Positions 1,047 through 11,977 of a stretch of 23,710 nucleotides of DNA are shown here, piece by piece; position 1 is the first letter of the stretch, and every line of letters starts with the position of its first letter. The stretch lies in IMG/VR virus record IMGVR_UViG_3300031141_000041, positions 1 through 23,710 of that record; one strand, 5' to 3'. The stretch is from a virus. The notes under the pieces were generated by a model that was not told the origin of the DNA, made no database searches, and saw only the letters and a list, made by a program, of their open reading frames with translations. A program made the translations under genes and the position numbers.

Positions 1047-1123
1047 GCTTCCATAGCTCAGTTGGCTAGAGCAGCTGATTTGTAATCAGCAGGTCGTAAG
1101 TTCGAGTCTTACTGGAAGCTCCA
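1047..1123 (+). tRNA. tRNA-Thr (anticodon TGT)
   Basis: Acceptor GCTTCCA (1047-1053) pairs with TGGAAGC (1113-1119), and TCCA is encoded at the 3' end (1120-1123). The D arm is GCTC...GAGC. The anticodon stem GCTGA/TCAGC carries loop TTTGTAA, anticodon TGT. The T arm is GTAAG-TTCGAGT-CTTAC. It would read ACA. Confidence 0.96.
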
Positions 1124-1165
1124 ATATTAGTTGGTTCATTGACTTACTGGAATAAACGTATTAAT

Positions 1166-1238
1166 TGTCCTATGGTGTAACTGGCAACACGTCTCGTTTT
1201 GGTCGAGAAGAGTCGAGGTTCGAGCCCTTGTGGGACAA
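1166..1238 (+). tRNA. tRNA-Gln (anticodon TTG)
   Basis: Acceptor TGTCCTA (1166-1172) pairs with TGGGACA (1231-1237) with one G-T wobble. The D stem is GTGT/ACAC. The anticodon stem TCTCG/CGAGA carries loop TTTTGGT, anticodon TTG. The T arm is CGAGG-TTCGAGC-CCTTG with a G-T pair. The 3' end shows discriminator A followed by CA, so CCA is not fully encoded. It would read CAA. Confidence 0.92.
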
Positions 1239-1295
1239 CAATAGGAAGTAAGGTAAGCGCACCTTTTTAATGTCAGAACACATTAAACCTATTTT

Positions 1296-1379
1296 GGAGG
1301 ATTGGACAATGGTTGTCAAACTGTCTTGAAAACAGTCGGGTGTTAAAGCTTTGCAGGTTCGAATCCTGTGTCCTCCGCC
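1296..1379 (+). tRNA. tRNA-Ser (anticodon TGA)
   Basis: Acceptor GGAGGAT (1296-1302) pairs with GTCCTCC (1370-1376), followed by G and CC. The anticodon stem ACTGT/ACAGT carries loop CTTGAAA, anticodon TGA. A long variable arm of about 15 nt lies before the T arm GCAGG-TTCGAAT-CCTGT, as expected for class II tRNA-Ser. It would read TCA. Confidence 0.94.
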
Positions 1380-1472: not shown

Positions 1473-1616
1473 ATGTCAAATAACACACAAAGCAACAGTA
1501 GTAGTCAAGTAAACACAACAAGGAATACATTTAACACGAATGTATCTAATTTAAAAATGTTAGGAAGTTCTAGAAGAATCCAATGGGATAGTAAAAGAAG
1601 ACACCGAGCAATTTAA
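1473..1616 (+). CDS. Small Asn/Ser/Thr-rich protein of unknown function (47 aa)
   Basis: ATG at 1473 to TAA at 1614-1616. The first half is polar and low in complexity (MSNNTQSNSSSQ). The second half is basic, with SSRRIQWDSKRRHRAI at the end, which could bind nucleic acid. It lies between a family B promoter-like repeat and the tRNA-like and structured RNA elements. No family is recognised. The position and clear start and stop favour a real gene, but the short frame in an RNA-rich region could be chance. Confidence 0.45.
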   Translation: MSNNTQSNSSSQVNTTRNTFNTNVSNLKMLGSSRRIQWDSKRRHRAI

Positions 1617-1799: not shown

Positions 1800-1804
1800 C
1801 AAAG

Positions 1805-1895
1805 TATAAGGAAAACAGAACAAATAAACAAAGGCGGATTTGGTTTCCAACATCGAAGTAATTCGGTTCTGCGGGTTCGAATCCCATTCTTATAT
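1805..1895 (+). pseudogene. Degenerate tRNA-like element
   Basis: TATAAGG (1805-1811) can pair with TCTTATA (1888-1894) as an acceptor stem. A T-loop TTCGAAT (1876-1882) sits on a poor stem GCGGG/CCCAT with a C-A mismatch. CGAA-GTAA-TTCG (1854-1865) looks like a class II variable arm. No acceptable D arm is present, and the only anticodon-like fold (loop TTCCAAC, anticodon CCA) needs two G-T pairs. It could be a decayed tRNA or a tRNA-mimic domain of the adjacent structured RNA. Confidence 0.35.
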
Positions 1896-1899
1896 TTAA

Positions 1900-2396
1900 G
1901 TCATTACCCAAAGGGTGAAGGACATGGGTTAGGATTTAATTCCATCAATAGCATTCCCTAAAGATGCTCAGTTAATCTACGGGATTAGCAAGTATAAGTA
2001 CTGTGAAAAGTAAGTGAAGCTAGGACAAGCTGGAATAAGATAAAGGTTTATCTCCAGTCCCAGATATTTCTAGAAACCTCGAAAGACCCGAAACTTTTCT
2101 CAGTATTTTTTTATAACTAGGCCCAAAACCAATGCATTGGCTAGGGATCGAAGCTCACAGATGACGGGTTTATTAATGCAATTATAATATAGCTTCGGTT
2201 AAATTATATTTTAATAGATTGGCGCGGATGCTGGCCGAACCGTTGGTCGGATTAGTTGGTAACTCTAAGGCGTTTCGCAAAGTTACACATTATTTACTGG
2301 ATATCGTTGCACCGACACCGTTCGAAAGGTTATATTTAAGAATCGGTCTTTATAGTAGGTGATTAATATCGCAGCCTAGCATATCCAGTATTTTTT
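1900..2396 (+). ncRNA. Large structured non-coding RNA candidate (GOLLD/ROOL-like in setting)
   Basis: There is no open frame, but local helices are dense: ACCC/GGGT (1906/1913), AGCAT/ATGCT (1950/1964), GTTAATC/GATTAGC (1971/1983), CTGGA/TCCAG closing GATAAA/TTTATC (2030-2057), the palindrome CCAATGCATTGG (2129-2140), CGAAGCT/AGCTTCG (2149/2191), GTAACT/AGTTAC capped by GCG-TTT-CGC (2259-2286), and a 10-bp helix TACTGGATAT/ATATCCAGTA (2295/2381). That last helix closes a branched domain with ACCGA/TCGGT inside and is followed by six Ts, so it doubles as a terminator. GOLLD and ROOL are known large RNAs of phages and prophages that often lie beside tRNAs; class membership here is inference. 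The 5' boundary is unknown and may lie near 1617. Confidence 0.55.
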
Positions 2397-4409: not shown

Positions 4410-4527
4410 TAATCCTGATTTTATATATTGGGAAGATACATGGAACGATAAAAAACCAAAAACTCCAAAAACAGAATGTTGTGGCGATTGGGATGGTGAG
4501 GGTAACTGTTGCACTAAAATATTATAA
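4396..4527 (+). CDS. Small cysteine-rich protein (43 aa)
   Basis: The start is taken as the ATG at 4396, preceded by a purine-rich AAAGGTGAAGAAG that can act as a ribosome binding site; an upstream in-frame ATG at 4333 lies deep inside the KTSC gene. The C terminus holds ECCGDWDGEGNCCTKIL, two CC pairs that suggest a metal site or disulphides. No family is recognised. Confidence 0.6.
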   Translation: MSKPNNPDFIYWEDTWNDKKPKTPKTECCGDWDGEGNCCTKIL

Positions 4528-4536
4528 AATAAAGAC

Positions 4537-4860
4537 ATGGGATTATTACAAAAAATAGAATGGAAAACTAGGAAGTGGAACATTACTTTTAAATTACTAG
4601 ATATTCAATTACGAGATGGTGGAGGATATTGGGGGTTTACGTTTTGTGAATTAACTAATAATTATATACAATACTCGTTAGCATCTATTGAGTTTGTTTT
4701 GCCGAATGGAGCAGAACGAAAAAGAATGTCAATAATCGACTGGGATTTGTTGTTTTTAAGAACGCCAATACGTAATTGGGTTAACCATATTGATGAAAGT
4801 ATTTTATGGGGACATAAACCATCTAGTATTGAGAGAATATTATACGCAATTTTAAAATAA
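4537..4860 (+). CDS. Hypothetical protein (107 aa)
   Basis: Unrecognised. The sequence is rich in aromatic residues (GGYWGFTFCELTNNYIQY) and probably forms a small beta-rich domain; no signal peptide or membrane helix is clear. It begins 9 nt after the cysteine-rich gene and is the last gene before the first family A promoter, so it probably closes the transcription unit that begins upstream. Confidence 0.72.
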   Translation: MGLLQKIEWKTRKWNITFKLLDIQLRDGGGYWGFTFCELTNNYIQYSLASIEFVLPNGAERKRMSIIDWDLLFLRTPIRNWVNHIDESILWGHKPSSIERILYAILK

Positions 4861-4925: not shown

Positions 4926-5561
4926 ATGGAACCAGAAAAAGATATATTCGACGAGTGGGCCGATGAAAGAGAAGCCAAATCATGGATTAGAAAAAAACTA
5001 GAATTCATTCCATTGTGGTGGGAAAGAGATGGTAACAGTATGCACCTTGAATTTACAAGAGGAGTAAAGAATCTTATTTATTGGTTTCCTATCATATGGA
5101 AAGATCGTAACTGGGATTCTCATTATATCTTTGAGATCTTAAAACATAAATTGACATCACAAGCAAATTATATCGCAGAACAGGACAGACATACAAGGGC
5201 TCAGAAGGATGCAAGGGATATGAAGCGATGTGTTGAGTTAATGAAATTAATTGATGATGGTTTTTATGAGGGAGAATATTGTGATTATCATAAAACAAAG
5301 AATTGGTTTGAACCATTAGATGATAATACAGGTTCATCAACATGGGAATCTAGAGAACTAGAAGAAAACTTCGATGACTATTTCGCTAAATATCCATTAA
5401 TCCATAAAAGAGCATTAAATGGCGAAGGACCTTTTGGTAAAAATGATACAGAAAAGAGCAAACAAATAATAGCAATGAATATTGGAAACATTAACCAAGA
5501 AAGAGCACATTCGTTATTGTTTAAAATAATGAAAGATAATATTCTTGGATGGTGGGATTAA
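4926..5561 (+). CDS. Phage protein of unknown function (211 aa)
   Basis: It resembles a family of hypothetical proteins seen in many large phages, recognisable by the run FTRGVKNLIYWFPIIWKDRNWD (residues about 44-65) and a following helix LKHKLTSQANYIAE. It is rich in Trp and acidic residues, with no signal peptide and no enzyme motif. It is the only gene of its unit, between family A promoters 1 and 2, which implies independent and strong expression. The function is unknown. Confidence 0.8.
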   Translation: MEPEKDIFDEWADEREAKSWIRKKLEFIPLWWERDGNSMHLEFTRGVKNLIYWFPIIWKDRNWDSHYIFEILKHKLTSQANYIAEQDRHTRAQKDARDMKRCVELMKLIDDGFYEGEYCDYHKTKNWFEPLDDNTGSSTWESRELEENFDDYFAKYPLIHKRALNGEGPFGKNDTEKSKQIIAMNIGNINQERAHSLLFKIMKDNILGWWD

Positions 5562-11736: not shown

Positions 11737-11809
11737 GGGGGATTGGTGAAATTGGCTATCACGCTGCCCTTGCACGGCTGTATTTTGAGTTCGAGTCTCA
11801 AATTCTCCA
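11737..11809 (+). tRNA. tRNA-Ala (anticodon TGC)
   Basis: Acceptor GGGGGAT (11737-11743) pairs with ATTCTCC (11802-11808) with two G-T pairs. The D arm is GTGA/TCAC. The anticodon stem CTGCC/GGCTG has one T-T mismatch, with loop CTTGCAC, anticodon TGC. The T arm is TTGAG-TTCGAGT-CTCAA. Discriminator A is followed by CA. It would read GCA. It lies apart from the main tRNA cluster but again close to a GIY-YIG gene. Confidence 0.9.
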
Positions 11810-11828
11810 CATTGTGCTTATCAGCAAC

Positions 11829-11864
11829 AAAGGCTTTATATATTAATATATAAAGCCTTTTTAC
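11829..11864 (+). terminator. Strong intrinsic terminator after tRNA-Ala
   Basis: AAAGGCTTTATATA / TTAA / TATATAAAGCCTTT is a perfect 14-bp stem (11829-11860) followed by TTAC and more Ts. The stem is symmetric, and its A/T ends could let it work on both strands. Confidence 0.85.
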
Positions 11865-11868
11865 TTTT

Positions 11869-11938
11869 AAAGATCTCCTGATTCCATAAATATAGTAGTT
11901 TGTCGTTATTCAATTGTATTTGTCCAGGAGATCTTTTT
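11869..11938 (+). terminator. Long-loop terminator element, copy 1 (repeated at 19867)
   Basis: AAAGATCTCCTG (11869-11880) pairs with CAGGAGATCTTT (11925-11936), followed by Ts. The 44-nt loop holds ATTCCA, GTTTGT, TTATTCAAT and TTGTC, all shared with the copy at 19867-19936. Stem differences between the copies keep pairing (T-A to C-G, T-A to T-G). The loop also contains GTTTGTCGTTAT, complementary to 11954-11965 downstream. Confidence 0.75.
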
Positions 11939-11942
11939 TATT

Positions 11943-11957
11943 AGATATATAGTATAA
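11943..11957 (+). promoter_or_regulatory. Family B promoter-like site 3
   Basis: AGATATATAGTATAA follows directly on the terminator element. TTTGT lies 25 nt upstream (11919-11923), close to the 26-27 nt seen at the tRNA-flanking sites. It would drive the GIY-YIG gene at 11978 with a leader of about 20 nt. Confidence 0.45.
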
Positions 11958-11977
11958 CGACAAACAAACTATATAGC

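Follow-up and report, generated by a model that had tools for sequence, protein, structure and literature searches.

The window analysed here is a stretch of 23,710 nucleotides of viral DNA (IMG/VR record IMGVR_UViG_3300031141_000041) which, judged by its gene content, looks like a fragment of a T4-like phage, its genes including ligases, homing endonucleases and an exonuclease of a kind that T4-like cyanophages frequently carry. Searches for related phages using the flanking proteins identified a near-identical contig (L009/G002) and one distant syntenic phage, L010, the nearest relative after that contig, itself a 175-kb contig carrying the same HNH and peptidase genes at 76-77% identity. 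Elsewhere in the window the sequence TTTTTTTATATCAATTAAAAGTGTTATATTTACTTATAAC recurs as a promoter-like leader upstream of the ORFs at 4926, 5672, 6608, 8108, 12634 and 16442, and would fit a promoter of the Bacteroidota type. At 11737-11960 there is a tRNA-Ala with two highly stable, T-run-bearing hairpins after it, where the local fold z drops to as low as -8.3. The tRNA cluster under study, and the non-coding DNA adjoining it, contain the features listed below, the boundaries of the units (U) having been obtained by comparing the whole region with fetched phage loci.

834-1041, plus strand: U1, a conserved non-coding unit between a GIY-YIG-type gene and tRNA-Thr
1047-1379, plus strand: tRNA-Thr, tRNA-Gln and tRNA-Ser, the ordinary part of the cluster (Rfam, ARAGORN)
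1473-1616, plus strand: U2, a conserved small ORF of 47 codons
1723-1800, plus strand: U3, tRNA-like, with no normal anticodon loop (Rfam tRNA model, 58.5 bits)
1804-1900, plus strand: U4, tRNA-like, with an intact T arm and an odd body
1900-1990, plus strand: U5, a three-hairpin RNA
1996-2111, plus strand: U6, a small RNA with a pseudoknot, standing alone and with T7 after it
1998-2003/2101-2106 and 2005-2011/2093-2099: stem P1 of U6
2020-2025/2068-2073: helix P3 of U6
2013-2021 and 2080-2092: conserved strands of U6, AGTGAAGCT and CGAAAGACCCGAA respectively
2112-2290, plus strand: U7, with conserved AGGGAWCGAAG, GTTGGTAACT and AAAGTTAC
2293-2396, plus strand: U8, an RNA closed by the helix 2295-2304/2381-2390, followed by T6

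Upstream of position 1900 the cluster holds coding and non-coding elements side by side. Homologues of U1 were found in L151 (88%), L242 (85%), L204, L144 and L124, with a tRNA directly 3' of the unit in L242 and L151, and its consensus folding is weak. The reading frame of U2 is kept in L124 and L233, and its product is a small basic protein (MSNNTQSN...QWDSKRRHRAI) conserved in phage tRNA clusters. A preliminary description of this DNA had placed a possible transcript start at 1378; the segment from there onwards is partly coding, on account of 1473-1616. Nor does 1378 stand as the start of a giant RNA, as the repeat at 1379 precedes the conserved 47-codon ORF; a GIY-YIG-type homing endonuclease gene follows the second copy, at 137. 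This 14-nt repeat, CGTGACTGTTTGTG, lies 3' of two tRNA genes (137-179 and 1379-1422) and is followed 16-17 nt on by CATAGATATATAG, with a coding gene after both copies; it is possibly an mRNA promoter or a processing site. Anticodon arms are abnormal in both tRNA-like elements. That of U3, for which ARAGORN found no valid anticodon, consists entirely of a perfect 22-nt palindrome (1748-1769), which might resist or decoy anticodon nucleases, and among the fetched phage loci there is one further tRNA whose anticodon arm is palindromic. U4 was not called by ARAGORN at default settings and has a homologue at L124:8784-8861, upstream of U6 in that phage.

In 1900-2396 there are no plausible ORFs, just spurious short ones, as the preliminary description had stated for these approximately 500 nt, and the G+C content is 38% compared with 32% window-wide. 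The 10-bp helix that it had reported, followed by six Ts, is likewise exact (TACTGGATAT/ATATCCAGTA at 2295-2304/2381-2390, then T6 at 2391-2396). Its proposal that helix density exceeds chance has a weak case from folding alone: in one piece the 501 nt fold weakly better than shuffles (z -1.9; 4/100), and sliding 120-nt windows fold in an ordinary manner (mean z +0.37). Cut at the boundaries of the homologue sets, U6, U5 and U8 gave z values of -3.0, -2.4 and -2.2 respectively, and U7, at -0.3, folded no better than shuffles. In the homologues, compensatory base changes are present across phages in each of U5, U6, U7 and U8, so that the presence of structured non-coding RNA beside the tRNA cluster is borne out; as far as the aligned homologues allow us to judge, the structure of 1900-2396 is supported by covariation rather than by folding energy.

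The comparisons behind U5 and U8 involve a single homologue each. For U5 this is L146:12283-12373 (minus strand), against which 20 pairs were checked, five being changed on both sides and none broken. For U8 it is L242:5989-6096, located immediately before a tRNA, in which the 10-bp closing helix is retained with three compensatory changes and one pair lost; in the window this helix, with the T6, probably doubles as a terminator. U7 has homologues at IMG/VR loci L151, L253, L124, L242 and L189 and in the uncultured phage LR756500, with compensatory changes in two stems, CCGA/TCGG and GTAACT/AGTTAC. Within their units the homologous stretches of U7 and U8 cover 2143-2287 and 2294-2392 respectively.

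The largest body of evidence concerns U6. A 17-nt piece, CTCGAAAGACCCGAAAC (2078-2094), matched an uncultured phage tRNA cluster, L025, and provided the first lead to homologues, the family being exposed by extended patterns combined with a check of the flanking stem; long patterns also matched coding sequence by chance (KDPK codons), and requiring the P1 stem removed these. Its members are pseudoknotted RNAs, roughly 100-130 nt long, that share the invariant strands AGUGAAGCU ... GAAAGACCCGAA, long and unpaired, and the window carries the P1 stem, the AGUGAAGC strand, the P2/P3 pseudoknot and the GAAAGACCCGAA strand. The family model R1 scores the window at 60.9 bits, and a profile made without the window and its near relatives recovers window positions 2006-2101 at E = 4e-10, the best decoy being at 0.64. 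In an alignment of 43 sequences after redundancy removal, using 10 pairs from P1, five from P2 and six from the pseudoknot helix P3, 168 cells were changed on both sides compared with 71 ± 6 in shuffles, and the covariation score was 0.471 compared with 0.222 ± 0.013 when shuffled and was far lower with the partners slid. Covariation was seen in P1, P2 and P3, and again in P1 and P2 in a model-fitted alignment of 72 matches, in which 94.6% of P1/P2 cells pair, this alignment being biased towards the model. In L253 and L151 the core is near-identical to that of the window's U6, with P1 arms that are different yet complementary. L023, part of which is matched by the U6 model at 41 bits, looks by eye like a circular permutation of U6 with a T-run of its own.

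Pattern-based scans detected U6 in at least 58 distinct IMG/VR sequences. Among isolates it is present in Klebsiella phages RaK2/K64-1 and KP13-26, Erwinia phage Hena1 and Proteus phage PM135, and, as partial or weaker matches, in E. coli phage mogra, Rhizobium phage RHEph12 and Cellulophaga phage phi19:3; several phage families are represented, and in the isolates it is unannotated as RNA. A strict U6 pattern gave nine matches in 84,980 prokaryote genomes, none of them with a P1 stem. No Rfam 15 family matches U6 and no description of it was found in the open-access literature, where a gut structured-RNA catalogue (PMC8040213) could include members. The family is apparently uncatalogued, and it is widespread, occurring in tRNA clusters of numerous phages that are not related to one another. 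Of 61 sites, 41 have a tRNA no more than 20 nt from U6, usually at 0-3 nt, and units placed so directly between tRNA genes could be structured spacers or insulators whose sole role is to offer the ends of tRNAs to the nucleases that process them. We regard this as unlikely, given that U6 carries long invariant single strands and that it occurs away from tRNAs in some phages (RHEph12, phi19:3 and L023) and, as described below, inside RNase P RNA.

The L025 RNA that holds the CTCGAAAGACCCGAAAC match resembles bacterial RNase P class A (RF00010), the model scoring it at 32 bits and E 1e-8, below its gathering score of 100. An RNase P core pattern recovered further phage-encoded RNase P-like RNAs, several of them miniature (CRI-to-CRV core approximately 150 nt) and often in tRNA-bearing contigs, with relatives in 595- and 642-kb uncultured phage records. 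These RNAs, and the copies of U6 grafted into them, are located as follows.

L025, 1280-1560, minus strand: phage RNase P-like RNA
L026-L035, L039-L043, L045-L049, L051 and L053: further phage RNase P-like RNAs
L025, 1395-1500, minus strand: U6 inserted within an RNase P RNA hairpin
L043, 12836-12941, minus strand: U6 inserted within an RNase P RNA hairpin

Other inserts occupy the same RNase P hairpin in L051 and L042, and a permuted tmRNA (RF04321, 119 bits) at L049 6318-6605, minus strand, shares a tRNA cluster with a mini RNase P RNA. We considered whether the window itself encodes an RNase P RNA and rejected this, the motif shared with L025 being the insert in that phage's RNase P RNA; the window region gave no RNase P match at E ≤ 10 and lacks the combination of GAGGAA...CAGGAC with TAGATRAATG...ACAGAATCCTG, and the RNase P model R2 found no match in G002, the contig near-identical to the window. 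We also rejected the idea that U6 partners phage RNase P in trans, as the two hardly co-occur except for the two inserted copies. The same grafts, taken together with the other U6 members that abut tRNAs, would fit a portable domain tied to tRNA maturation, inserted in phage RNase P RNA in two contigs and separate elsewhere. This appears improbable: U6 was present in two of 23 RNase-P-bearing records, in both as the inserted copy, and RNase P in one or two of 43 searched records, nearly all of them U6-bearing, many of the records in either comparison being fragments.

The homologues of the region as a whole form a mosaic, in which separate units occur in varying order and often with tRNA genes in between. 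The order in L242 is U6, tRNA, U1, tRNA, GIY-YIG-type gene (HEG), U7, tRNA, U8, tRNA, and the orders in L151 and L253 are different again, with tRNA genes interleaved. In L010 the interval from the last tRNA (tRNA-Arg) to the HNH gene contains nothing resembling the element; at 4471-4582, shortly before this tRNA, L010 carries a different structured RNA of approximately 100 nt, with homologues in L161, L124, L230, L224, L127 and L077. A BLAST search of phage isolates with the entire segment returned nothing at 1e-5, and the proposed Rfam check, run with Rfam 15 over 830-2430 at E ≤ 10, returned tRNA-type models only, with no match to GOLLD, ROOL, tmRNA or others. The favoured interpretation in the preliminary description was one giant structured RNA (approximately 500 nt, or about 1 kb if extended over 1378-2396), either a divergent relative of GOLLD or ROOL or a new giant class. 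The continuous non-coding stretch beside the tRNAs and the z of -1.9 for its one-piece fold agree with such an RNA, as does the known occurrence of GOLLD and ROOL beside phage tRNA islands (PMC12286853). Against it, the segments have separate homologues in other orders with tRNAs intervening, 1473-1616 is coding, the syntenic phage L010 is without the element and no large RNA model matched, so that we consider a single giant RNA very improbable and membership of GOLLD or ROOL as contradicted. We give equally little credence to a cluster of decayed tRNA genes, which would account for U3 and U4 with their aberrant anticodon arms but not for U5-U8, none of which forms a cloverleaf and all of which recur in other phages with compensatory changes; for U6 this reading is refuted.

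At the level of sequence, these comparisons show separate homologous units that move independently, carry compensatory changes and are packed tightly against tRNA genes. We consider it probable that this region forms the last part of a phage stable-RNA operon, composed of tRNAs, independent small RNA genes (U5-U8 and probably U1), tRNA-like elements and a small ORF. By analogy, the best inference for U5-U8 is that they are trans-acting stable RNAs resembling T4 RNAs C and D. In such an operon U5-U8 would be co-transcribed with the tRNAs and cut free at the tRNA ends by tRNA-maturation nucleases, processing by these enzymes being the simplest inference since unit ends abut tRNA ends, and the transcript would end at the last stem of U8 and its T6. 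Each RNA unit would fold independently, and adjacent units could work together in one complex. In U6 the P1 stem is predicted to close the P2/P3 pseudoknot, which would hold the two invariant strands together; invariant unpaired strands held in this way suggest a putative site at which a small molecule, or a protein of the host or the phage, would bind. U6 would presumably act in trans during infection, and we rate as doubtful the conjecture that it interferes with a defence factor or an RNase of the host.

Whether U6 represents a new RNA class is in our view evenly balanced. On this reading it would be a portable pseudoknotted module, spread over unrelated phage families of many Gram-negative hosts, which may sit between two tRNAs, occur by itself or be inserted into other RNAs, that of phage RNase P among them. 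It would have a biochemical activity of its own, never described, in protein or ligand binding, perhaps in counter-defence.

Amongst known systems, GOLLD resembles the units described here in being a phage RNA that adjoins tRNAs and whose function is unknown, but its Rfam model was unmatched and the units are approximately 90-180 nt in length compared with >800 nt for GOLLD (PMC12286853); a member would be a single RNA, in many cases longer than 800 nt, in which the 3' half is conserved, whereas we found segments whose homologues are independent and differently ordered. ROOL also adjoins phage tRNA islands, but again its Rfam model was unmatched and there is no single large fold here. For tmRNA there was neither an Rfam match nor an ARAGORN call in the region. 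RNase P class A (RF00010) hosts U6 as a hairpin insert in phage RNAs, U6 itself not being an RNase P RNA.

Phage tRNA clusters have long been known to hold stable RNAs of unknown function, such as T4 RNAs C and D. U6 provides a defined family for such RNAs, one that has a pseudoknot and invariant nucleotides and is represented in isolates, and because these include the E. coli K-12 phage mogra its role is open to experimental test; it also suggests that entire RNA families lying amid the tRNA genes of phages escape automatic annotation. T4 RNAs C and D were detected by Northern blot and their function is unknown (PMC9697503). These RNAs (rnaC/rnaD, species 1 and 2) are, like U6, small (approximately 120-140 nt) and located beside a phage tRNA gene, whilst model R1 had no significant match in the T4 tRNA region, U6 being the only unit so compared. 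The 3' end of rnaC is a tRNA-like T arm, loosely resembling U4, and rnaD lies beside tRNA-Arg, just as the U6 of mogra is placed between tRNA-Met and tRNA-Arg.
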